From Spirosoma aureum (lineage in GTDB: Bacteria > Bacteroidota > Bacteroidia > Cytophagales > Spirosomataceae): DNA of 64,000 nucleotides. The position numbers were made by a program, and so were the translations under genes. Location: the NCBI RefSeq assembly GCF_011604685.1, contig NZ_CP050063.1, positions 3,246,501 to 3,310,500 of the forward strand, in the 5' to 3' direction. This document shows, in pieces, positions 1 to 38,472 of this stretch; within the stretch, counting starts at the first letter, position 1; each line of letters opens with the position of its first letter. The notes beneath the pieces are model-generated. The model was not told where the DNA came from. It did not search any database and saw nothing but the letters and a program-made list of their open reading frames with translations.

Positions 1-162
1 AGGAGCAAGGATTTCGCCCAGGTTGCTCTGTTAGTGAAAAGTCTGGACACGCCCAAAGATCAGTTTACAATTGAGATCCAGGAAACCAAAACAGGTGGAA
101 CGCTTAAGTTTCAATGGGATGACAAAGAGGCTTATACTGACTTTAAAATAATCAGGAATTAG
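1..162 (+). CDS. C-terminal fragment of a DUF2911-like protein (partial at left edge)
   Basis: The first frame is open from base 1 to a TAG at 160-162 and gives the last 53 residues of a protein whose start lies outside the window. The pattern (a hydrophobic strand, LDTPKDQFTIEI, a short turn, then LKFQWDDKEAYTDFKI) resembles the C-terminal end of the complete DUF2911 protein at 685-1218, which has SPIEKLTITP followed by SSIAIAWDNMTISVPV. I infer that it is a related DUF2911-type protein in tandem with its neighbour. The similarity is short, so the family call is tentative. A very strong hairpin follows 26 bases after the stop. Confidence 0.5.
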   Translation, partial: RSKDFAQVALLVKSLDTPKDQFTIEIQETKTGGTLKFQWDDKEAYTDFKIIRN

Positions 163-187
163 CGTTTACCTGTCACTGGAAGATCAA

Positions 188-241
188 GCCCCATAAACAG
201 CAAGCCCGTTCAGCAATGGACGGGCTTGCTGTTTATGGGGC
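188..241. terminator. Perfect 22-bp inverted repeat, terminator-like
   Basis: Arms 188-209 and 220-241 are exactly complementary over 22 bp around a 10-base loop. It lies 26 bases after the stop of the preceding gene. No T tract follows on either strand, so it is not a textbook intrinsic terminator. It could act as an mRNA 3'-end stabiliser or a bidirectional terminator. The arm core CAGCAAGC recurs in the hairpin at 57368-57414. Confidence 0.7.
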
Positions 242-242
242 A

Positions 243-684
243 GTAAACCCCTACCCAGGACCAATAAACGGGCGTTTATCATTGTACGGTTTGAAGCTAT
301 TGCTTTAAAATACCGTTGAAAAGAACAATTTGCCGTTCCAGTTTGTCAGACGAGGAGCTCTCCGTAATAAGATTGAGCGATAGCCTTTTGAGAAAATCGA
401 CTATTTTCATGAATGCTTTATTAGAGCCAATTAATAAGATTACGTATAAGTTTTTTTTAGCGTAAATTTTTTTGAAAAACAGCAAGCAAATAAAAGGTAC
501 TAATAGTCAGTAGTTTAGATGCTATTAGCCGTATGTAGAAGCAGGGAAGGGAGTCGTATAGCTTTCAGAAATGGATGTAGGAAAAATACAGTTCTCTCCT
601 TATTCTTTACATTATTCGCCAAAAACTATCGTTTACTTTGTAGCGTATATGACACAAACAAACAACCAAATCAATTTCACCATC
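243..684. other. Intergenic stretch upstream of the DUF2911 gene
   Basis: This AT-rich stretch of about 440 bases holds no convincing gene. A minus-strand frame (297-485) could encode a short peptide beginning MKIVDFLKRLSL, but it has no family resemblance, no terminator and no clear ribosome-binding site. A small inverted repeat (ATAAACG, 264-270 and 273-279) is present. The segment TTACTTTG at 633-640 matches the Bacteroidota -7 consensus TAnnTTTG except at the second base and lies 45 bases before the start at 685, so it is the likely promoter. Confidence 0.4.
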
Positions 685-1218
685 ATGAAAAATCTGATTG
701 CAGTCTTTAGTCTCCTGTTTGCCATGGTATCACTGGCGCAGGCACAGGACAAAAAGCCGCCAGTAAGTCCGAAGGTAACTGTAGAAAGCCCTGATAAGAA
801 TATCAAAATTGTTTATGGCCAGCCTTCTAAAAAAGGCCGGGTTATTTTCGGGCCAGAAGGATCGGCTAGTCTGGAGAAATTTGGTAAAGTTTGGCGCACT
901 GGTGCCAACGAAGCTACGGAAATTACATTTAAAAGCGATGTAATGTTCGGTGACAAAATGGTGAAGGCAGGTACCTACACGCTATTTACCATTCCCGGTG
1001 AAAAAGAGTGGAGCGTTCTGTTGAATAGCACGCTGGGACAGTGGGGTGCTTACGACTACGAAAAAATCAAAGGTAATGATGTGGCAATGATAAAGGTACC
1101 CGTATCGATGGCTAAATCACCCATCGAAAAACTGACCATTACGCCCTCTAACAGCAGCATTGCCATTGCCTGGGATAACATGACAATTTCGGTGCCAGTA
1201 ATGAAACACGGCTCGTAA
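685..1218 (+). CDS. DUF2911 domain protein, exported
   Basis: This is a 177-residue protein with an N-terminal signal peptide (MKNLIAVFSLLFAMVSLAQA, cut near residue 20) followed by one DUF2911 domain. Family features visible are SPKVTVESPDKNIKIVYGQP, GRVIFG, VWRTGANEATEI, the AGTYTLFTIP strand and W-V-L-N. The start at 685 was chosen over the upstream in-frame ATG at 571 because it directly begins a standard signal peptide. DUF2911 proteins are common secreted Bacteroidota proteins of unknown function, so no reaction can be assigned. The gene appears to be a single unit: a promoter-like -7 element at 633-640 and an intrinsic terminator at 1301-1340. Confidence 0.9.
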   Translation: MKNLIAVFSLLFAMVSLAQAQDKKPPVSPKVTVESPDKNIKIVYGQPSKKGRVIFGPEGSASLEKFGKVWRTGANEATEITFKSDVMFGDKMVKAGTYTLFTIPGEKEWSVLLNSTLGQWGAYDYEKIKGNDVAMIKVPVSMAKSPIEKLTITPSNSSIAIAWDNMTISVPVMKHGS

Positions 1219-1300
1219 GTTTGACAGTAGTAAATCAGCAAGCTGGTAATTTTCCAGATAAGGAATTCCCGGCTTGCTTAGTTTACCTTGAATCCCTGAT

Positions 1301-1340
1301 TAGCCCGACCTCCGATTTAAGGGGGCGGGCTAACTTTTTT
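1301..1340 (+). terminator. Intrinsic terminator after the DUF2911 gene
   Basis: TAGCCCG (1301-1307) pairs with CGGGCTA (1326-1332), the stem is extended by a CCTC/GGGG segment after a one-base mismatch, and a run of Ts follows at 1335-1341. It lies 83 bases downstream of the DUF2911 stop. Confidence 0.8.
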
Positions 1341-1479
1341 TGAGTAATTAATGGGTAAATTCCACCTTTTTTAGCGTGTATCGGGTCTATCTTGCAACAA
1401 ACGCATTAAAATTTGCGTAAAAAGTTAACAGACAATAGATTAAGTGCGTTATTTGGGGTAATAAAACCAGCTATATTGA

Positions 1480-2388
1480 ATGATGAAACGCTACTTTGTT
1501 TTTTTGCTTGTAGTATTGGCCAACATGCCTGCTTTGGGGCAGGAATTGGCCGACTACTACCAAATTCCAGACCAGCGTCATCAATATGACCGGTTGCTGG
1601 CGCGCTATGGTGGTGCATATACCCGCGATCGCTGGTATGTTTCCCTGAACGGTTTTGTCCGCACAGACCGTGCTAAACTCGACAACTCATTTAATGACCT
1701 GATCGGAAGCAATCGGGTAACAAAATTGGGATGGAGTGCGCTCATTGGCTGGGCGTATCGGGAGCGGTGGGCTGTAGAAGCGGGTTATGTTAGTTCGCCT
1801 ACTCATACCGAAGTGCTTGTTAATAGTGGTGTATATCCGTATACCTTCCGATTTTCCAATGACAAACAGGGGCTTGTACTACGGGGTAAACGGATGATCC
1901 TGTCAACCAGTGGGCCCTGGAACAGATCAGGATTCTGGCTGACGGGCGGGTTATGGGTAACTCCGAACAGCAATCAGGATAAGGGTAAGTTTGCGCTTTC
2001 GGGGTATGGCTATCGAGATTGGCGAAGAGAGAAGTTAGATACGCTCCGATTAAGTGGTCAGACAGTGACGAGCGCGGTTCCAACAGCCATGGCCGAACTC
2101 GGCGTAGAATACAACATTCGACTGAACAATCAATTCGATATGGGCTTTTCGGTGCGTAAGCTCTGGGGTTTAGGAAGCTCAATTAAAACGGACGTTACGT
2201 ACAACATTAACGGACGGGAAGCGCACCATGCGCAATTCGATGGAACGGGCAGCGGTATGACCTATGGGTTAACCCTGCGTTATACCTTTGCGCTCCGGCA
2301 GACATTGTCGAATGTTCTTGATATTCAGGGCAAGAGGCCGTCAGGAAGGAGTAAAATAACACCGTTTAAAGAACAGATTAAGTATTAG
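1480..2388 (+). CDS. Outer-membrane beta-barrel-like protein of unknown function
   Basis: This 302-residue protein starts with a signal peptide ending near ALGQ (residue 21); either of two adjacent ATGs could be the start. The remainder alternates short amphipathic strands rich in aromatic residues and glycine (WYVSLNGFVRT, LGWSALIGWAY, WAVEAGYVSS, MTYGLTLRYTFAL), typical of an outer-membrane barrel of roughly 8-12 strands. A basic tail of about 30 residues follows the last apparent strand, which is unusual for a barrel. I do not recognise a specific family. It appears monocistronic, with no partner gene nearby to suggest a substrate. Confidence 0.7.
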   Translation: MMKRYFVFLLVVLANMPALGQELADYYQIPDQRHQYDRLLARYGGAYTRDRWYVSLNGFVRTDRAKLDNSFNDLIGSNRVTKLGWSALIGWAYRERWAVEAGYVSSPTHTEVLVNSGVYPYTFRFSNDKQGLVLRGKRMILSTSGPWNRSGFWLTGGLWVTPNSNQDKGKFALSGYGYRDWRREKLDTLRLSGQTVTSAVPTAMAELGVEYNIRLNNQFDMGFSVRKLWGLGSSIKTDVTYNINGREAHHAQFDGTGSGMTYGLTLRYTFALRQTLSNVLDIQGKRPSGRSKITPFKEQIKY

Positions 2389-2441
2389 TCTATCGGGATT
2401 AGGGGTTGATCTTCAGGTGGTTACTGTTGGAAATAATGAAA

Positions 2442-2457
2442 TTTTTTGCGCAAAAAA
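2442..2457. promoter_or_regulatory. Perfect 16-bp palindrome, candidate operator
   Basis: TTTTTTGCGCAAAAAA is its own reverse complement and ends one base before the TTTG (2459-2462) that acts as the -33 element of the promoter described next. The position suits an activator or repressor site. The binding protein is unknown. Confidence 0.45.
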
Positions 2458-2458
2458 A

Positions 2459-2490
2459 TTTGCGAAATAAAAAAATACTTTCCACCTTTG
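2459..2490 (+). promoter_or_regulatory. Promoter of the cysteine-tailed leader ORF and redox genes
   Basis: A TTTG at 2459-2462 is followed after 20 bases by CACCTTTG (2483-2490), which matches the Bacteroidota -7 consensus TAnnTTTG except for the first T. Transcription would begin near 2497, giving a leader of about 370 bases ahead of the start at 2869. Confidence 0.5.
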
Positions 2491-2535
2491 CCTATGAACT
2501 TAGTCGACTGATCCGTCAGGCAGTTATTTACACTC

Positions 2536-2637
2536 ATGAATAAGCAAGCATCCCAACCGGCTCTCTCCCTTGAAACACCTGTTTCCCGGTTCCGAATGCG
2601 CACCATGTCGATGCCGACGATGGGTTGCTGTTGTTGA
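2536..2637 (+). CDS. 33-residue leader ORF ending in Met-Gly-Cys-Cys-Cys
   Basis: An ATG at 2536 opens a 33-codon frame ending at a TGA (2635-2637). The second half is rich in Met and Thr, and the last three sense codons are TGC TGT TGT. The frame lies between a promoter-like element (2459-2490) and a hairpin (2663-2680), on the mRNA leading to a peroxiredoxin-like gene and a TlpA-type oxidoreductase. Consecutive codons for one amino acid directly before a stop, followed by a hairpin, is the layout of ribosome-mediated attenuation leader peptides, here for cysteine. No signal peptide or domain is visible. I infer a regulatory role; a secreted or modified peptide is the alternative. The ribosome-binding site is weak. 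Confidence 0.55.
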   Translation: MNKQASQPALSLETPVSRFRMRTMSMPTMGCCC

Positions 2638-2662
2638 GGTTAAGTTCTTCTTCTTTTGCAAA

Positions 2663-2680
2663 TGCCGTTAGCGAACGGCA
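2663..2680 (+). promoter_or_regulatory. Hairpin downstream of the leader ORF
   Basis: TGCCGTT (2663-2669), the loop AGCG and AACGGCA (2674-2680) form a perfect 7-bp stem starting 25 bases after the leader stop, behind a pyrimidine-rich stretch. No U tract follows, so it resembles a pause or anti-terminator hairpin rather than a terminator. Confidence 0.4.
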
Positions 2681-2791
2681 AACAACTAACCCATTAAATG
2701 CTTACCCGCTGTCTATTCTGACTAAGGGATGTAATCGACTCACTGATTTGTCGTGACTCGTTACAAAAAAACAAGTAATTCATTTACATTA

Positions 2792-2816
2792 TTATCCTAT
2801 TTAATATATAGGATAA
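2792..2816. promoter_or_regulatory. Inverted repeat in the AT-rich region before the redox genes
   Basis: TTATCCTAT (2792-2800) and ATAGGATAA (2808-2816) are perfect 9-bp arms with a 7-base spacer in a very AT-rich segment 52 bases before the start codon at 2869. It could be an operator for a second, internal promoter. No known regulator can be named from the sequence. Confidence 0.4.
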
Positions 2817-2868
2817 ATATTATAAAGAACAATCACTTCGATTAAATACGACATAAACGCAACTACTC

Positions 2869-3597
2869 ATGACACTTGAATTTCAAAATGAACTCGGCGA
2901 TTTCCGCACATTCACCACAAAGCCTCGCCAAAAGAATGTTGATATTCAACCGTTAAAGACAGGTGATACAGCTCCATTTTTCAGTCTGGCGGGCGGTTCG
3001 GGCGATTGGCGGGCCTCCATCTTCAATTATCCGAAATCAGGATCCGGTCAATCAGTATCGCTTTTGGATTTAGTGGCTGAAAAGCCGGTAGTCATAAGCT
3101 TTTATTGCCCATGCTGGGGGCGTTATGCTGGCCCCTATCTGGATTCGCTGATTCGCCTGAACGATGCCCTTCAGCAAGTTGGCGCTGAATTAGTGGTTCT
3201 CTCCATCGAATCGCCAAAAGTGCTCGCCAAGCAGGGTAAAAATCTGGATTTCCTGTTTGCTCATGATGCTGATCAACAAGTGTCGCGTCAATTCGGGGTG
3301 TACAACGAAGACAGCCCGGTTTGGGATCGGGTATCGGGCATTTCCGATGAAGCCTTTATTCCGGCCGTGTATGTGGTCGGTCCAGATCGGCAGATCGAAT
3401 ACCATTTCCTGGATGAAAACTTCGATACACCAATCGACATCGATACGATTGTTTCGCATGTATGGGCACTGAGCCCGGTTGATGCTGACTTTATCGATAA
3501 GCCGGTTGGCCGGCAGAATGTGTATGCGCAGGGATTTTTCGCGCTTTGGCTGCTGGGCTTTCTGGCTGCTGCCGGTTCACAATTCATCAATCCCTAA
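2869..3597 (+). CDS. Peroxiredoxin/redoxin-like (AhpC/TSA-type) protein
   Basis: The 242-residue product has a thioredoxin fold from about residue 30 to 195: TGDTAPFFSL, then VVISFYCPCWGRYAGPYL with cysteines at 80 and 82, a LVVLSIES strand, an FLFAHDAD segment and a cis-proline-type FIPAVYVV strand. The active site is C-P-C rather than the C-x-x-C of thioredoxins, which fits the broad AhpC/TSA group. There is no N-terminal signal peptide. The C-terminal 20 residues are hydrophobic (FFALWLLGFLAAAG) and may be a membrane anchor or an amphipathic helix. It is followed after 11 bases by a TlpA-type gene, so the two form an operon behind the cysteine-tailed leader. Confidence 0.75.
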   Translation: MTLEFQNELGDFRTFTTKPRQKNVDIQPLKTGDTAPFFSLAGGSGDWRASIFNYPKSGSGQSVSLLDLVAEKPVVISFYCPCWGRYAGPYLDSLIRLNDALQQVGAELVVLSIESPKVLAKQGKNLDFLFAHDADQQVSRQFGVYNEDSPVWDRVSGISDEAFIPAVYVVGPDRQIEYHFLDENFDTPIDIDTIVSHVWALSPVDADFIDKPVGRQNVYAQGFFALWLLGFLAAAGSQFINP

Positions 3598-3608
3598 AAA
3601 CACGTTTT

Positions 3609-4874
3609 ATGAAACGCAATCAGGTCGCCAAAACGGTATTCCTCACAGCACTCACCAGCACCAGCCTTTTCGCTCAAACACCAGCTCCATTACGTGAAGG
3701 CGTATGGCGGGGTGTTTTTCAGGCTGGTCAGGAAACCATTCCGTTCAATTTTGAGGTGAAAGCCGGGAATTCGGTGGCGACAACCAAGCTTTATCTGCTT
3801 AATGCCCGTGAGCGTGAAGAATTGACCGACCTGACGCAACAGGGAGACTCGGTTTTCGTTCCGATCCCGCTGTATGACGCTACACTCCGTTTTAAACGAG
3901 AAGGAGCGGATAAACTGACGGGGGTATACCGTAGTAACTCAAGTGGCCGTGACCTTCCGCTAGCGGCTGAATATGGCAAAACCTACCGGTTTGAACCGGG
4001 TGTGACTCCTACCGTTAAATTGTCGGGGAAATGGGATGTCAATATTGAGCGGGCACCCGGTGATGTCAATAAAACGGTTGGTATATTCGAACAGAATGGT
4101 AGCCGCGTTACGGGTACTATTCTAACCGTAACGGGCGATTATAGATATCTGGACGGTCAGGTCTCGGGAAACGAGTTTGTACTGTCTTCGTTTAGTGGCT
4201 CGTCGCCGTCCGTTTTTCGGGGGAAATTTACTGACGAGGGTAAATTCACCGGCGAATTCCGTTACGTGCGGGGAGGTTTTACGGCAACAGGAGTAAAAAA
4301 CGAAAAAGCCGCTTTGCCGGATCTATATTCTTTGACGAATCTTAAGCCGGGTTACTCCAAACTTGATTTTACCTTTCCTGACCTGAATGGTAAATCTGTT
4401 TCGCTCAATGATCCGAAGTACAAAGATAAAGTCGTGATCGTAACAATTTTAGGTAGCTGGTGTCCAAACTGTATTGATGAAACCGCTTTTCTGGCGCCCT
4501 GGTACAAAGCCAACCGAAAGCGGGGAGTTGAAATAATCGGTCTGGCCTTCGAGCGAAAAAATGATCTGACGTTTGCCAAAACAGCCTTAAGCCGACTGCT
4601 TAAGCGGTACGATGTTCAGTACGATATTTTGTTTGCTGGAATAGCGGATAAGAAAGTGGCCTCCGAATCGCTCCCGGCGCTGAATAAAGTACTCGCTTTC
4701 CCAACCACCATTATCATTGATAAAAAAGGTAATGTTAGCCAGATTCATACGGGTTATACGGGTCCGGCTACAGGTGCCTATTACGATGAATATGTGCAGG
4801 AGTTCAATAGTCACATCAACCAGTTGCTTGGCGACACCCCTGCTCCTCAAGCATCCCGGCAAACGGTCAAGTAA
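3609..4874 (+). CDS. TlpA-family thiol-disulfide oxidoreductase, exported
   Basis: This 421-residue protein begins with a signal peptide (MKRNQVAKTVFLTALTSTSL, cut after FAQ near residue 23). Residues 25-240 form a beta-rich domain of the kind found before TlpA/ResA domains in Bacteroidota. The C-terminal thioredoxin fold carries the active site GSWCPNC with cysteines near 284 and 287, and a cis-proline strand in FPTTIIIDKKG. The role inferred is thiol-disulfide exchange in the periplasm or cell envelope. The start at 3609 was preferred to an upstream in-frame ATG inside the preceding gene because it begins the signal peptide and lies 11 bases after the stop of the redoxin gene. Confidence 0.88.
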   Translation: MKRNQVAKTVFLTALTSTSLFAQTPAPLREGVWRGVFQAGQETIPFNFEVKAGNSVATTKLYLLNAREREELTDLTQQGDSVFVPIPLYDATLRFKREGADKLTGVYRSNSSGRDLPLAAEYGKTYRFEPGVTPTVKLSGKWDVNIERAPGDVNKTVGIFEQNGSRVTGTILTVTGDYRYLDGQVSGNEFVLSSFSGSSPSVFRGKFTDEGKFTGEFRYVRGGFTATGVKNEKAALPDLYSLTNLKPGYSKLDFTFPDLNGKSVSLNDPKYKDKVVIVTILGSWCPNCIDETAFLAPWYKANRKRGVEIIGLAFERKNDLTFAKTALSRLLKRYDVQYDILFAGIADKKVASESLPALNKVLAFPTTIIIDKKGNVSQIHTGYTGPATGAYYDEYVQEFNSHINQLLGDTPAPQASRQTVK

Positions 4875-4937
4875 TCCAGTTTCGTGAATTGACCTTTTTT
4901 CAGATTGTGTCGCCTGCCCATTTTTTGACGAAAGGAA

Positions 4938-5225
4938 ATGCTAGTAAAAATCATGATTAACAGTAAAGTAAGAAAGACGGTATCCGAATTCGATGGACTA
5001 CCGTTTGCCGAGCAGGCAGCAATTATCTGGCAGAAAGGCCAACCGGTTGCTACCCGGCATTTACCCGATTTTCGGCTACACTTATACGCCGTCGACCATT
5101 TTTTTGTTGAAATGTGGGTTTGTCGACGTCGATTCATAGTTACACTGTTCCGCCCAATAACGGATACCGACGATTTACTGCCTTACGTAAATCTTGGATT
5201 GCCAGTTCAGAACAGTATGTGTTGA
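4938..5225 (+). CDS. Small conserved-looking protein of unknown function
   Basis: This 95-residue cytoplasmic-looking product has no signal peptide or membrane segment. Phrases such as VRKTVSEFDGLPFAEQAAIIWQ, FRLHLYAVDHFFVEMWV and ITDTDDLLPYVNLGL have the composition of a real folded protein, but I do not recognise a family. AAAGGA just upstream of the ATG at 4938 is a plausible ribosome-binding site; a second in-frame ATG at 4953 is possible. It lies 63 bases after the TlpA-type gene and could belong to the same transcript. Confidence 0.55.
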   Translation: MLVKIMINSKVRKTVSEFDGLPFAEQAAIIWQKGQPVATRHLPDFRLHLYAVDHFFVEMWVCRRRFIVTLFRPITDTDDLLPYVNLGLPVQNSMC

Positions 5226-5435
5226 ATACCTGGCAGTTGGCCTATCGTGACTGAAGGATTAGCTAAAAAACGCTATGGCGTATAAATCTAGATACTGAGA
5301 TGCTGTGGGTATAGAATCAGGGTTATTCGCCTTATCTTTAAATCCCGTTAGGCTGTGTGTTTGAGGGCATTTATTAGTCCTGAATTGTCGAAAACACAAC
5401 GTTCTGACGAACTGATTTAACAACCTAAAAAACGC

Positions 5436-6323
5436 ATGAAAAAGCAATTCAGCATTCTCCTCTTTTTTACCCTAAGTTCCCTGTTGAGCAACGCACAGAC
5501 TCAACCCAAAACCGTTGGCCCCGAAAAAGGTGCACTCGTCATTGTAGGGGGCGGCAGCATGGCTCCCGAACTCTGGAGCCGTTTCGTTGAATTAGCGGGT
5601 GGACCCGCCAATGCCAACATCGTTATCGTGCCTACGGCAGGCGAAGATTCTTCAGCTACCAAAGCGCCCCGAGAAACTGAAAGACTCCAGAGCCTGGGCG
5701 TGAAAAACATAACCATTCTGCATACCCGTGATCCGAAGGTTGCCAATCAGGAATCGTTCGTTGCTCCTTTGAAAAAAGCAACGGGGGTCTGGTTCGTAGG
5801 TGGTCGTCACTGGCGGTTAACCGATTCCTATCTGAACACGTTGGCGCATAAGGAATTCAATGCTGTACTGAGCCGGGGTGGTGTCATTGGTGGTACATCG
5901 GCCGGGGCGACCATTCAGGGATCATTCATGGTGCGGGGTGACACAAAAGGGAACTCAATCATGATCGGTGATCACACAGAGGGTCTCGATTTCATTCATA
6001 ATGTGACTATCGATCAGCATGTTCTGCGCCGGAATCGCCAGTTTGACCTCATTGATGTCATTAAAGCGCGGCCCGAACTGTTAGGTGTCGGCATTGACGA
6101 AGGGACCGCTATTGTCGTTCAGAAAAATACGTTTGAGGTGATGGGCGCATCGTATGTTGCTGTCTACACCGCCGACCAGATTGCCAATAATGCCAAATAC
6201 CCATCGGGTCAGAACAGCACAGGTGGTCCGTTTTTTTTCCTGGGTAAAGGACAGAAGTTCGATTTGCAGACGCGTAAGGTACTGAACCAGCAGCCCCCGC
6301 GACCGAACGAACCCGCTAAATAA
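5436..6323 (+). CDS. cphB: Exported cyanophycinase (peptidase family S51)
   Basis: The 295-residue product belongs to peptidase family S51. It has a signal peptide (cut near residue 20 after SNAQ), a GALVIVGGGSM strand, IVIVPTAGED, the nucleophile elbow GGTSAGAT with Ser near 154, and the distal VTIDQHVLRRNRQFDL and GVGIDEGTAIVV segments of cyanophycinases. Cyanophycinase hydrolyses the Arg-Asp storage polymer cyanophycin to beta-Asp-Arg dipeptides. The signal peptide indicates that it acts outside the cytoplasm, so it probably uses external polymer or cleaves other beta-aspartyl peptides. No cyanophycin synthetase is present in the window. Confidence 0.87.
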   Translation: MKKQFSILLFFTLSSLLSNAQTQPKTVGPEKGALVIVGGGSMAPELWSRFVELAGGPANANIVIVPTAGEDSSATKAPRETERLQSLGVKNITILHTRDPKVANQESFVAPLKKATGVWFVGGRHWRLTDSYLNTLAHKEFNAVLSRGGVIGGTSAGATIQGSFMVRGDTKGNSIMIGDHTEGLDFIHNVTIDQHVLRRNRQFDLIDVIKARPELLGVGIDEGTAIVVQKNTFEVMGASYVAVYTADQIANNAKYPSGQNSTGGPFFFLGKGQKFDLQTRKVLNQQPPRPNEPAK

Positions 6324-6399
6324 GTCGATTTATTGAATGCATCGCTTCTGATTTACTCAACACTTACATTTACCTATCAACCCCTTAACAAACCAATAA

Positions 6400-7692
<1,293 letters not shown>

Positions 7693-7701
7693 CCAGAATA
7701 C

Positions 7702-7744
7702 GGTTTACGGGAGCCAGAATACTAGAGTCAGGCTCCCGTAAACC
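7702..7744. terminator. Perfect 14-bp hairpin after metY
   Basis: GGTTTACGGGAGCC (7702-7715) pairs exactly with GGCTCCCGTAAACC (7731-7744) around a 15-base loop, 9 bases after the metY stop. It is followed by A-rich sequence rather than Ts. Confidence 0.7.
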
Positions 7745-7761
7745 AAAAACAAAGTTCAATT

Positions 7762-9231
7762 TTGAGTAAGCCAGATTATGATGCCGTTGTGGTTGGCTCT
7801 GGACCGAATGGCCTGAGTGCTGCGATTACGTTGCAACAAGCCGGTCTATCGGTACTGGTGCTGGAAGCCAAAGCCGAAATTGGGGGCGGATTGCGTTCGG
7901 CAGAACTGACATTGCCTGGCTTTATGCATGATATTTGCTCGGCAGTTCATCCATTGGCGGCAGGTTCCCCGTTTTTTCAGAGCCTTCCGTTGGCTGAACA
8001 TGGGCTGGAGTTTATTTACCCGCCTTTGTCAGCTGCGCACCCCTTCGACGACGGAACCGCTGCCTCACTACGACCGTCGGTTAGCGAAACAGCTCGTACA
8101 CTGGGTATCGATGAGCGGGCCTATCTGGATTTGCTGGAACCACTGGTGCGCCATTGGCCAACAATGGCTGCGGATGTGCTGGGGCCGTTACGCTTTCCAA
8201 AGCATCCATTCGACATGGCTCAATTTGGTTTGGATGCGTTGCCATCGGCAGTGCAATTGGTTAAACGGTTCAAGACAAAAGAAGCCCGTGGTTTGTTTGC
8301 CGGAATGGCGGCCCATGCCATTCAGCCGTTATCGAATCTGACAACGTCGGCCATTGCACTGGTCCTGATGACGGCGGGGCACCTGCGGGGCTGGCCAGTT
8401 CCTAAGGGTGGTTCACGGGCTATTGCCAATGCGTTGGCGTCGTATTTTCGGTCGATTGGCGGCAAAATTGAGACGAATACGCCGGTTCAGTCAATGAGTC
8501 AGTTACCGTCGGCGAAGGTCGCCGTGTTTGATGTAACACCAAAACAATTGCTTGGTATAGCGGGTGATCGATTCGCTTCCGGAACCGCAAACCGGCTGTA
8601 TCGCTGGCAATTAGAGAACTATCGATACGGCATGGGCGTGTTTAAAGTCGATTGGGCGCTGGATGGGCCAATTCCGTTTACGGCTCCGGAATGCCGACAG
8701 GCTGGAACAGTTCACCTGGGCAGTACATTCGAAGAAATCGCTGAAGCAGAACGGCTTACGTCGCAGGGGCAGCACCCGGATCGACCCTATGTGTTGCTAG
8801 CGCAGCAAAGTCTATTTGACTCGACACGTGCACCGGAAGGGAAACATACAGCCTGGGCATACTGCCACGTCCCAAATGGCTCGACGGTCGACCGAACAGA
8901 CGCTATTGAACGTCAGATCGAGCGGTACGCGCCCGGTTTTCGGGACCAAATTCTGGCGCGACATACCATGAACACGGCCCAGTTGGAGATGTATAACCCA
9001 AATTACGTAGGGGGCGACATCAACGGCGGCATCATTGACATCCGTCAGTTGTATACCCGGCCCGTTGTTACCCTGTCGCCTTACCGGACATCGGCTCCCG
9101 GCATATACATCTGCTCATCGTCTACGCCACCCGGTGGCGGGGTACATGGCATGTGCGGGTATCATGCGGCCCGGGTTGCCCTACGCGAAGGATTTGCTCT
9201 GCCCGTAACGGTGTCACTTGCCACAGGTTAA
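7762..9231 (+). CDS. FAD-dependent oxidoreductase of the phytoene-desaturase/PYROXD2 type
   Basis: This 489-residue flavoprotein opens with the dinucleotide-binding motif VVVGSGPNGLSAA (residues 10-22) and continues with LEAKAEIGGGLRSAEL, as in CrtI-like and PYROXD2-like oxidoreductases. A C-terminal FAD segment IYICSSSTPPGGGVHGMCG is also visible. No signal peptide is present. The frame lacks a suitable ATG at its 5' end; TTG at 7762 is used because the FAD motif begins only nine residues later. No other carotenoid genes flank it, so carotenoid desaturation cannot be claimed and the substrate is unknown. The next gene, a PhyH-type dioxygenase, is 165 bases away and probably separately transcribed. 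Confidence 0.8.
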   Translation: MSKPDYDAVVVGSGPNGLSAAITLQQAGLSVLVLEAKAEIGGGLRSAELTLPGFMHDICSAVHPLAAGSPFFQSLPLAEHGLEFIYPPLSAAHPFDDGTAASLRPSVSETARTLGIDERAYLDLLEPLVRHWPTMAADVLGPLRFPKHPFDMAQFGLDALPSAVQLVKRFKTKEARGLFAGMAAHAIQPLSNLTTSAIALVLMTAGHLRGWPVPKGGSRAIANALASYFRSIGGKIETNTPVQSMSQLPSAKVAVFDVTPKQLLGIAGDRFASGTANRLYRWQLENYRYGMGVFKVDWALDGPIPFTAPECRQAGTVHLGSTFEEIAEAERLTSQGQHPDRPYVLLAQQSLFDSTRAPEGKHTAWAYCHVPNGSTVDRTDAIERQIERYAPGFRDQILARHTMNTAQLEMYNPNYVGGDINGGIIDIRQLYTRPVVTLSPYRTSAPGIYICSSSTPPGGGVHGMCGYHAARVALREGFALPVTVSLATG

Positions 9232-37004: not shown

Positions 37005-38453
37005 CTACTTATAGATGGATACCGCATCAAACAAACTTGGTGCTGAACGGGGGCTATTGGGGTTTGAATTCAGTTCATTCTGGGAGTAAATGAAACGGCC
37101 CGGAAGCTGACTGCCGTTATTGGGTTTAAGCTTAACGCCTAATCCCTCGGCGCGGGCGCGACGCTCATCGTCCCAGCCAATGTGCTGACCGTAGAAGGTG
37201 ACATACCGCTCTTCCAGAATTTCCCGCAGCAGAGCCTTATCAGCCGGGAGGCCATCTTTGTTTTCGATACCGCCAGCAGCAAAATCAGCGGCAACGTAGG
37301 GGTCATATTTGTAGGTGCCCGCCACTTTATAGGTCGCGTGCAGGTATCCGCCCCCATTGAGGAAGCTCCGATACGCATTCAGGTGAGCGAGAGCCACGTC
37401 AACTCCCTTTCCCGAACGCAGGGCCATTTCAGCCAGGGTCAGAATGTTCTCCTGATAAGTTACGAGCGGAAAACTGGCATCCCGTGCAAAAAAACCACGG
37501 TTAGCGGTCGTTGTCAGCGTATTTGGTTCAATTACACCCGGTGCATTGACCCCATTTTCAAGGTAGTAAAATTTGAAGCGGGCCGTTTCGTTCGTTTTGG
37601 CATTTCCGCGATAGGTAGCCGCTTTGGCTGGGTTCAGCAGTTCCGCATTATAAGCACCTTCGGCGGTTATACTGCCCGCCCGAATGTTGGTCAGGAAACT
37701 GTAATTCTGATTTTCATTCACGCTGGCCGTTGTGCCATGTGTGGCATACATGGAGTTTGCGTACGTACTGACGCCCGCCGTAGCCGCCGTGTAAGCCTCA
37801 TTGTACTGTTTTAAATCGAGGTAAAGACGGGCTTTCAGCGTATTGGCAACCTGCTTCCACTTCGTGATATCACCACTAAAGAAGATGTCTTTGGTGCCGA
37901 CGGTTCCAATTCCCGATTCCAGATCCGCAATGCCATCATTGAGCTGCGCAATGAGCTTCGGAATCATCTCCGCCTGTGTCTCGAAATGGGGATTTTTGTA
38001 GGTGATCGTATTCGCCGTTTCGGTAAAGGGTGCATCACCCCAAAGCTCAGTGACTGTACCGGCGCTGTGCGCCTGAATGATTTTGGTGATCCCCGCCATA
38101 ACGCGGTTGCCCAGCTGATTCGCTTTGTCGAGGGTTCGTACCGCATTTTTGTTGACGCCGGTATAGAAGAGGTTCCAGTCGTCGTCAAAATTAGCAGCTG
38201 TGATCTGGTACTGTCCCCAGGTGCCGAACTGCTGGAAACTACCGAATCCGTAGCCCGTCCAGACAATGGTGAGTCGGCTGGCCATGCCTTCCTGAGCCGC
38301 AATGTGCGCTATCTCAGTGCCCGTAAATAGATAGTCGGCTGACGCGTCGGTTGGATTGTTTGGGTCCTGGTTCATGTCGGACACCAGCGACTCGCAGGAT
38401 GACGAAGCCAGACCGATTAGTACAGCAAAAATGGCTTTATAGCGTAGTTTCAT
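37005..38453 (-). CDS. SusD/RagB-family outer-membrane lipoprotein
   Basis: The 482-residue product has a lipoprotein signal (MKLRYKAIFAVLIGLASSSC, lipobox with Cys at 20) and a SusD-like fold of helical repeats: DMNQDPNNPTDASADYLFTG, GITKIIQAHSAGTVTELWGD and the C-terminal LREILEERYVTFYGQHIGWDDERR. The pattern fits the SusD-like_2 subgroup. SusD proteins cap the paired SusC channel and bind substrate at the cell surface. Its gene follows the SusC gene after 19 bases. The start at 38453 was chosen because it begins the lipoprotein signal. Confidence 0.92.
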   Translation of the reverse strand: MKLRYKAIFAVLIGLASSSCESLVSDMNQDPNNPTDASADYLFTGTEIAHIAAQEGMASRLTIVWTGYGFGSFQQFGTWGQYQITAANFDDDWNLFYTGVNKNAVRTLDKANQLGNRVMAGITKIIQAHSAGTVTELWGDAPFTETANTITYKNPHFETQAEMIPKLIAQLNDGIADLESGIGTVGTKDIFFSGDITKWKQVANTLKARLYLDLKQYNEAYTAATAGVSTYANSMYATHGTTASVNENQNYSFLTNIRAGSITAEGAYNAELLNPAKAATYRGNAKTNETARFKFYYLENGVNAPGVIEPNTLTTTANRGFFARDASFPLVTYQENILTLAEMALRSGKGVDVALAHLNAYRSFLNGGGYLHATYKVAGTYKYDPYVAADFAAGGIENKDGLPADKALLREILEERYVTFYGQHIGWDDERRARAEGLGVKLKPNNGSQLPGRFIYSQNELNSNPNSPRSAPSLFDAVSIYK

Positions 38454-38472
38454 TGGATTGCTGTTGATTAAA

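Follow-up and report, generated by a model that had tools for sequence, protein, structure and literature searches.

A conserved Met/Cys-tailed short ORF ahead of an AhpC/TSA-TlpA-like operon in Spirosoma, a candidate sulfur-sensing leader peptide of Bacteroidota

Introduction

Cys leader peptides are known in Actinobacteria and Rhodobacterales. Cys-run leader peptides of Actinobacteria are described as having no terminators, with Rho proposed (Seliverstov et al., 2005, PMC1262725), polycysteine short ORFs of the same phylum are attributed to Canestrari et al. (2020, as cited in PMC9094748), uORFC-8-2 is given as a Cys-codon attenuator candidate in the cysS leaders of Rhodobacterales (PMC8632094), and leader-peptide attenuation is suggested for amino-acid operons of Flavobacterium psychrophilum (PMC9723704). 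Among the matches listed by our literature search, at the level of titles and abstract openings and with few subscription journals, no description of Cys leaders in Bacteroidota was found; at the same level, the matches listed held no description of a transcript combining a SAM riboswitch with a Cys leader. The leaders described here are a variant from Bacteroidota, in which SAM and Cys may be sensed together at some loci.

The window analyzed here is a stretch of 64,000 nucleotides from Spirosoma aureum (contig NZ_CP050063.1, positions 3,246,501 to 3,310,500). Judged from its sequence, the leader described below appears to have what defines a ribosome-mediated attenuator, a short 5'-leader ORF in which regulatory codons are clustered in a run close to the stop, and it has the Cys run adjoining the stop, with no terminator, that marks a polycysteine short ORF. 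It shares with the actinobacterial leaders the short 5' ORF, the Cys run at the stop, the lack of a conserved terminator hairpin and a proposed role of Rho; it differs in what looks like a 5' UTR of some 40 nt, where those have a leaderless start, and its set differs in belonging to Bacteroidota, with a Met-enriched tail, thiol-redox and lipid-type operons, and relatives behind SAM riboswitches. uORFC-8-2 is alike in being a uORF with tandem Cys codons and proposed ribosome stalling, whereas it has an intrinsic terminator and precedes cysS, while the window leader has no terminator and precedes AhpC/TSA genes. Sibling leaders of the SAM-I (S-box, RF00162) class have a Cys-containing ORF just behind the aptamer, some with the same type of palindrome, whereas the window leader has no riboswitch. 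For the tna operon of Escherichia coli, tryptophan induces arrest of the ribosome at the stop of the TnaC leader. A ribosome at the leader stop could likewise mask adjacent RNA from Rho in the window; the cue, however, is tryptophan-induced arrest in tna, and tRNA charging is proposed here, with Rho as a presumed partner.

Layout of the leader and its operon

The ORF of 33 codons is located at 2536-2637 on the forward strand (ATG...TGC TGT TGT TGA; ORF listing and translation) and encodes MNKQASQPALSLETPVSRFRMRTMSMPTMGCCC, as the original prediction had described; orthologues are present in five other Spirosoma genomes, and diverged relatives in nine more. Its most conserved segment is the sulfur-amino-acid tail M-R-T-M-S-M-P-T-M-G-C-C-C-stop (2596-2637, forward), in which the Cys codons occupy 2626-2634.

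Bacteroidota promoters of the -33/-7 type read TTG...TAnnTTTG. The promoter-like element that had been noticed at 2459-2490 (forward) is present, consisting of TTTG (2459-2462) and CACCTTTG (2483-2490), and is conserved in the six aligned leaders; C replaces T at the first base of its -7 element, and it is otherwise near this type. The pattern TTTG-N(17-24)-WYCACCTTTGYCYAT has a single match in the whole 8.9-Mb genome and none in the reversed control, and no sigma-70 promoter was called in 2380-2900. Since the ATG (2536) lies well beyond the last base of the promoter block (2490), a 5' UTR of apparently about 40 nt is likely, and a candidate stem, GACTG (2506-2510) with CAGTT (2521-2525), was found by eye in the six-leader alignment at 2506-2525 (forward), ahead of the ORF.

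Downstream on the same strand are genes for an AhpC/TSA-family protein of 242 aa (2869-3597; Pfam PF00578) and a TlpA/ResA-like AhpC/TSA-Redoxin protein of 421 aa (3609-4874; Pfam, with a homologue of 50% identity in genome G237), and the predicted order of a peroxiredoxin-like gene and a TlpA-type oxidoreductase was thus borne out by Pfam. The AhpC/TSA homologue was found in 28 of 36 Spirosoma genomes, and in many genomes it is the second or third gene, after a PhyH gene, a fatty-acid-hydroxylase gene or both (families run on locus L120 and assigned by eye elsewhere).

Conservation of the leader

A search of 59 related genomes with the peptide gave clear matches in G000 (the genome itself), G018, G017, G022, G005 and G029, and a profile of these six peptides, called type A, gave only the same six above noise in the 36 genomes of the genus. 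All six type-A ORFs stop 180-236 nt upstream of the orthologue of the gene at 2869-3597. When the six leaders are aligned, the promoter block and the palindrome described below are kept, the ORF stays in frame (with a 9-nt gap in G005) and the stretch after the stop is variable; frame, start and tail are conserved in all six genomes.

Regions of about 4.5 kb upstream of the AhpC/TSA homologue (94,247 bases in total) were examined in 20 genomes, and in nine of them a diverged ORF of about 30 aa with an M.MCC(C)-stop tail, such as MKFAQQPAYLRENAYLSSIRATMTMGMCCC and MKAPVALYTGLPHAQKPLPALLCMRMCCC, heads a longer operon holding the AhpC/TSA gene. The promoter block is present in these nine operon-head leaders as ...TTGGAA...TATTCACCTTTGYCTAYCA. 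ORFs of 18-50 aa ending in CC numbered 9 of 227 on the sense strand of the 20 regions, all nine being the leaders, and 0 of 249 on the antisense strand. In total, 15 of the 28 Spirosoma genomes having the downstream gene retain the Cys tail, and the ORF is absent in 11 of 26 assessable homologue regions (G027, G020, G003, G032, G034, G015, G019, G013, G004, G030 and G002); G021 and G011 are outside this count because their AhpC/TSA homologues are too close to contig ends. For G017, G023 and G035 an inner ATG was used so as to match the others, and for locus L397 the second of two candidate ORFs was used.

Beyond the genus, an ORF of Telluribacter (L129), MSMIIAQYIRTSSVSTGQHTVRSASMPRMLSASCCCCR, has the tail CCCCR and stops 180 nt before the AhpC/TSA homologue, and G198 has an ORF with the end GCCCLQSRMCC, its stop roughly 216 nt upstream of the gene match. 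The original prediction had proposed conservation of the ORF and its Cys codons in close relatives as its own check; both are conserved. With the tail present in 15 of 28 Spirosoma genomes and again outside the genus, there is good support for a Cys-codon leader. When ORFs with at least two Cys in the last six residues were collected from 110 upstream regions of about 1-1.5 kb each, 22 were obtained, comprising the six type-A leaders, leader-like ORFs of G023, G241 and G198, and 13 others. A pattern for M-C-C-C-stop matched in 87 of 390 genomes of the order; none of the 30 loci inspected was a leader-like ORF with clear context, but two entries of the list, in G006 and G025, coincide with leaders identified by other means.

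Two further arrangements were also observed. G220 (L206) and G219 (L208) have near-identical ORFs, MYWVKW.LRSFYSFGFCC, about 350 nt upstream of distant AhpC/TSA homologues. Loci L119 and L121 (3457-3860) have the promoter block and a GCAAAC...GTTTGC hairpin with a T run and no Cys-tailed ORF, i.e., a peptide-less leader.

Composition of the tail and the role of chance

The last 12 residues of the 16 leaders contain 50 Cys and 43 Met among 192, the bodies contain 2 Cys and 5 Met among 291, and the last 12 residues of short window ORFs give a background of 3.3% Cys and 2.1% Met; the Cys enrichment is biased because the tails were chosen for Cys, and Met enrichment played no part in the selection, the 16 peptides being, however, related. 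At least two Met are present within the last 12 residues in 14 of the 16. The Met-rich stretch before the cysteines, which had been called unusual for a pure attenuator, is thus itself conserved, and this suits a sensor of sulfur amino acids. Across the leaders the Cys codons alternate between TGC and TGT and the stops between TGA and TAA. Synonymous and non-synonymous codon differences are 3 and 2 for the type-A pair G000/G018 and 4 and 16 for G000/G022, so the leader body is without strong constraint, and residues other than Met and Cys vary freely between types in Spirosoma and Telluribacter.

A chance ORF is an explanation that we find hardly credible. It would account for the 11 genomes that have the downstream gene and no ORF, and, taken as sequence alone, three Cys codons followed by a stop are no rarity: TGYTGYTGYTRA has 60 matches in the same genome versus 37 for the reversed control, and the window ORF is the sole evident leader in the 30 loci inspected. 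The window holds 379 ATG ORFs of 18-50 aa, and three of them have a CC end, namely the leader ORF, one on the strand opposite a 524-aa ORF (38399-38467), and one at 8663-8800 in another frame inside the 489-aa ORF at 7762-9231. Chance does not, however, explain frame, start and tail conserved in six genomes with related tails in nine more. In dinucleotide shuffles (1000 for each of 16 leaders), an ATG ORF of 18-50 aa ending in CC appeared in 0-0.3% of trials, while it was observed in 15 of the 16 leaders, whose loci had been picked for CC-type tails; Telluribacter fails the CC end because Arg comes after its Cys run. The main evidence against chance is the sequence conservation.

Cys-bearing ORFs behind SAM riboswitches

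The same genome has a second Cys-tailed leader, in which a SAM-I riboswitch (RF00162, 73.3 bits) is followed by MITQISSSGSCKFRHSRSSVLQFCCCPC (tail FCCCPC) and the same palindrome as in the window, in the leader of a SusC-like operon. The genes around it are those for a sulfite dehydrogenase, a YeiH-like exporter, an SLC13-like permease and SusC/D, names that, like the YceI-like and cysteine-desulfurase-like labels at other loci, come from sequence reading. The riboswitch of this leader is at L300 (11736-11835; G000:C1:8070242-8070341, minus strand), with the Cys-tailed ORF (28 aa), the palindrome and the SusC-like gene after it, and the same order is seen in G018 (L323).

SAM riboswitches are found in all 36 genomes of the genus (72 matches), and 70 of the 72 loci were inspected, leaving out the G012 match and a sub-threshold G033 match. 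Ten loci were grouped by eye on an aptamer end identical or close to GGAACTATAAATTTAC; each has a short ATG ORF at roughly +113 to +128, and six of these ten ORFs have at least two Cys in the last six residues. Eleven of the 70 loci were flagged for Cys tails, the other five flagged frames starting with GTG or TTG, and no comparable short ORF was found at the remaining loci of the 70. At L356 (G018), about 113-200 nt after the riboswitch start, an ORF without Cys is followed beyond its stop by an in-frame CCCYW run.

The aptamer pattern GAGACAGGCTCN(4-9)AACYCTTAGCAAC, searched in 222 family genomes, matched at 25 sites, which lie in 22 genomes of five genera, and at none in the control; its selection did not use Cys, and eight of the 25 (the Spirosoma sites) and two g30 sites were already known beforehand. 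All 25 sites have a short ORF whose ATG is 86-107 nt downstream of where the motif begins; an ATG ORF alone is often expected there, and the points are the fixed place and the Cys content. Cys is contained in 24 of these 25 ORFs, at least two in 22, amounting to 73 of 607 residues (12.0%). As background, 492 window ORFs contain 3.05% Cys, with at least one Cys in 247 of them and at least two in 96. The Spirosoma riboswitch ORF at L403 (G018) has no Cys. The tails are CCP.DKWRS in g30 (6/6) and RCDPDQDWHL[CA]PIR in g43 (8/8), g54 has Cys-rich 14-15-mers (2/2), g57 has one ORF with two separate Cys, and Spirosoma has mixed types. The conserved endings of the g30 and g43 ORFs (L386-L399) are unlike a plain codon-run attenuator and could be cases of nascent-peptide arrest.

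Arrest of this kind, in which the C-terminal sequence together with a metabolite, metal or redox cue, and not an uncharged tRNA, stalls the ribosome, is for the leaders as a whole an unlikely alternative to tRNA sensing. It would be favored by the non-Cys residues conserved in the riboswitch-linked leaders of two genera, g30 and g43, and by the R.RM that type-A peptides keep upstream of the tail; Spirosoma and Telluribacter, however, share only the type of amino acid while other residues vary, which is expected for codon-based sensing.

In g54 (G237 and G233), the gene after the riboswitch and Cys-rich ORF encodes a homologue of the window TlpA-like protein (202/408 residues identical in G237; 35% over the 62 residues compared in G233), which connects the window operon with this kind of control from a second direction. 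The AhpC/TSA and TlpA-like genes are thiol-redox genes, not Cys biosynthesis genes, and the link to sulfur, made via the siblings with SAM riboswitches, is indirect. We tentatively propose, with some doubt, a sulfur regulon of Spirosomaceae built on Cys (and Met) leader ORFs, one branch of which joins a SAM-I riboswitch with a Cys leader, the window operon being of the riboswitch-free branch.

The peptide may instead be functional in itself, i.e., a small peptide rich in Met and Cys that binds metal, takes part in redox chemistry or is modified, and that is produced together with thiol-redox enzymes, which we judge quite improbable. The downstream genes do encode thioredoxin-fold proteins, and M..M.MCC-like tails resemble soft-metal ligands. 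The bodies diverge and the C-terminal formats differ widely, however, and similar ORFs behind SAM riboswitches precede unrelated gene types. The secreted or modified Cys-tailed peptide that had been raised earlier finds no backing either: no signal-peptide-like stretch is seen by eye, and Pfam gave no RiPP maturation enzyme among nine window proteins from 685 to 9231, the leader included.

The palindrome as a second control site

The palindrome TATCCTAT-TTAATAT-ATAGGATA at 2793-2815, conserved in the six leaders, is a candidate regulator site. It occurs once in the window, 0.17 occurrences being expected at up to three mismatches. A genome search with two mismatches gave 13 sites versus 11 for the control, so the count alone proves nothing, and the evidence is limited to two of the 12 other sites, 8070007 and 6754759. 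The genome has four SAM-I riboswitches, and these sites follow two of them at distances of 213 and 162 nt, respectively; that at 8070007 has the same core as the window palindrome and is the one in the SusC-like operon leader. Its regular expression was found in 8 of 25 riboswitch-linked leaders, so the link is not general, and in 9 of 16 stand-alone leaders, the seven missed carrying other arms by eye. The arms differ between clades (TATCCTAT/ATAGGATA, TACTATAC/GTATAGTA and ATCTAT/ATAGAT), and the symmetry is mostly kept, being broken in G005; since the arms change and the symmetry mostly stays, the site of a dimeric protein fits better than an RNA stem. An OxyR-like reading of CTAT-N7-ATAG was considered and dropped, the outer half-sites being absent by eye.

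An Rrf2-family gene is divergent to the AhpC/TSA homologue in L124, with two relatives of 76-77% identity in the genome of the window, and Rrf2-family proteins as binders of the palindrome are a guess. That a palindrome-binding regulator holds the control, the ORF being minor or a mere spacer, is in our estimate very unlikely. This divergent gene and the palindrome-like sites before homologues without the ORF (L080-L082, L084 and L085) speak for it, but an ORF that could be ignored should not keep its Met/Cys tail through divergence, nor recur in other operon arrangements.

RNA structure and the output step

The window leader is predicted to fold stably (z -3.98), and a predicted long-range helix at 2620-2694 (forward) pairs the Cys-codon stretch (2620-2637) with 2680-2694 around a hairpin at 2663-2680. 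Compared with shuffles, the duplex of tail and downstream RNA gave z of -2.7 in G000 and -2.1 in G017, and -1.0 to +2.1 in the other 14 leaders; an antiterminator shared across leaders was rejected, because the duplex beats the shuffles only in these two. The hairpin itself, TGCCGTT-AGCG-AACGGCA with 7 bp, is present as predicted, but it has no T run and relatives carry other stems by eye, so it does not qualify as a terminator or a conserved switch.

No intrinsic terminator was found in 2380-2900. A looser rule gave a hairpin after the leader in 4 of 16 cases (G008, G010, G023 and G017). The terminator scan gave one in the G008 locus (L120; shuffles 0.0) and none in the G031 locus (L117), in which the stem GCAAACC-TC-GGTTTGC, with four T, can be recognized by eye. 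The untranslated leader after the stop (2638-2792, forward) has more C than G (23% and 19% in its first 100 nt) and is a candidate Rho or structural control site; over the 100 nt after the stop, C exceeds G in 15 of 16 leaders and equals it in G022, as raw counts, which is a weak hint of Rho. Because the window has no terminator and the leaders no shared fold, we commit to the sensor (Cys, perhaps Met, codons) and rank Rho first, as a conjecture, among the possible outputs. Of the original idea of ribosome-mediated attenuation at a Cys run, the conserved Cys-codon leader has stood, while the hairpin as a terminator or conserved switch is not supported.

Proposed mechanism and its significance

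The comparison gives directly a conserved ORF, a conserved Met/Cys tail, and their company with the palindrome and with SAM-riboswitch leaders. From these sequence data we infer, with moderate confidence, that the ORF is a regulatory leader peptide sensing the charging of Cys-tRNA, perhaps also of Met-tRNA. The transcript would begin just after 2490, and the leader would be translated through the Met codons up to the Cys-codon run at its end. A shortage of charged Cys-tRNA, perhaps also of Met-tRNA, would halt the ribosome at these codons next to the stop; with ample supply, it would terminate and leave. A halted ribosome would cover the Cys-codon stretch and the RNA adjacent to the stop, so that the untranslated leader could not switch off the AhpC/TSA-TlpA operon. 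In the window, stalling would mean loss of the predicted helix between 2620-2637 and 2680-2694; in relatives, termination may instead depend on Rho or, in a small number of them, on an intrinsic terminator. A second control would be provided by a putative regulator at the palindrome (2793-2815). Sensing of tRNA charging is weakened by the 11 of 26 homologues without the ORF, by the missing window terminator and shared fold, by the unconserved hairpin, by the riboswitch ORFs of g43 and g57, which carry single, separate Cys and not runs, by the Cys-free ORF at L403, and by downstream genes that belong to thiol redox and not to Cys biosynthesis.

If the sulfur regulon proposed above exists, uptake, YceI-like and thiol-redox genes of its riboswitch branch would be opened only after the levels of SAM and of charged Cys-tRNA have both been read. 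A conserved Met/Cys-tailed set in Bacteroidota, beside SAM riboswitches, would mean that translation serves as a sulfur gauge in a further phylum, perhaps through two serial sensors. Bacteroidota make little use of Shine-Dalgarno sequences, and leader signalling without an intrinsic terminator would become directly testable in such a phylum. A sulfur-starvation hypothesis is also provided for poorly understood AhpC/TSA, PhyH, fatty-acid-hydroxylase and YceI-like genes.

Other elements near the operon

Rfam gave no family in the leader at E up to 1, the SAM-I aptamer included, and its search of window 1-8000 gave only a chance match to a miRNA family at 193-236. The source of this match is a long, terminator-like inverted repeat, GCCCCATAAACAGCAAGCCCGT / ACGGGCTTGCTGTTTATGGGGC, located at 188-240 after an upstream gene. 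A few genes downstream of the operon, on the same strand, an O-acetylhomoserine/O-acetylserine sulfhydrylase gene (TIGR01326) is present at 6406-7692.
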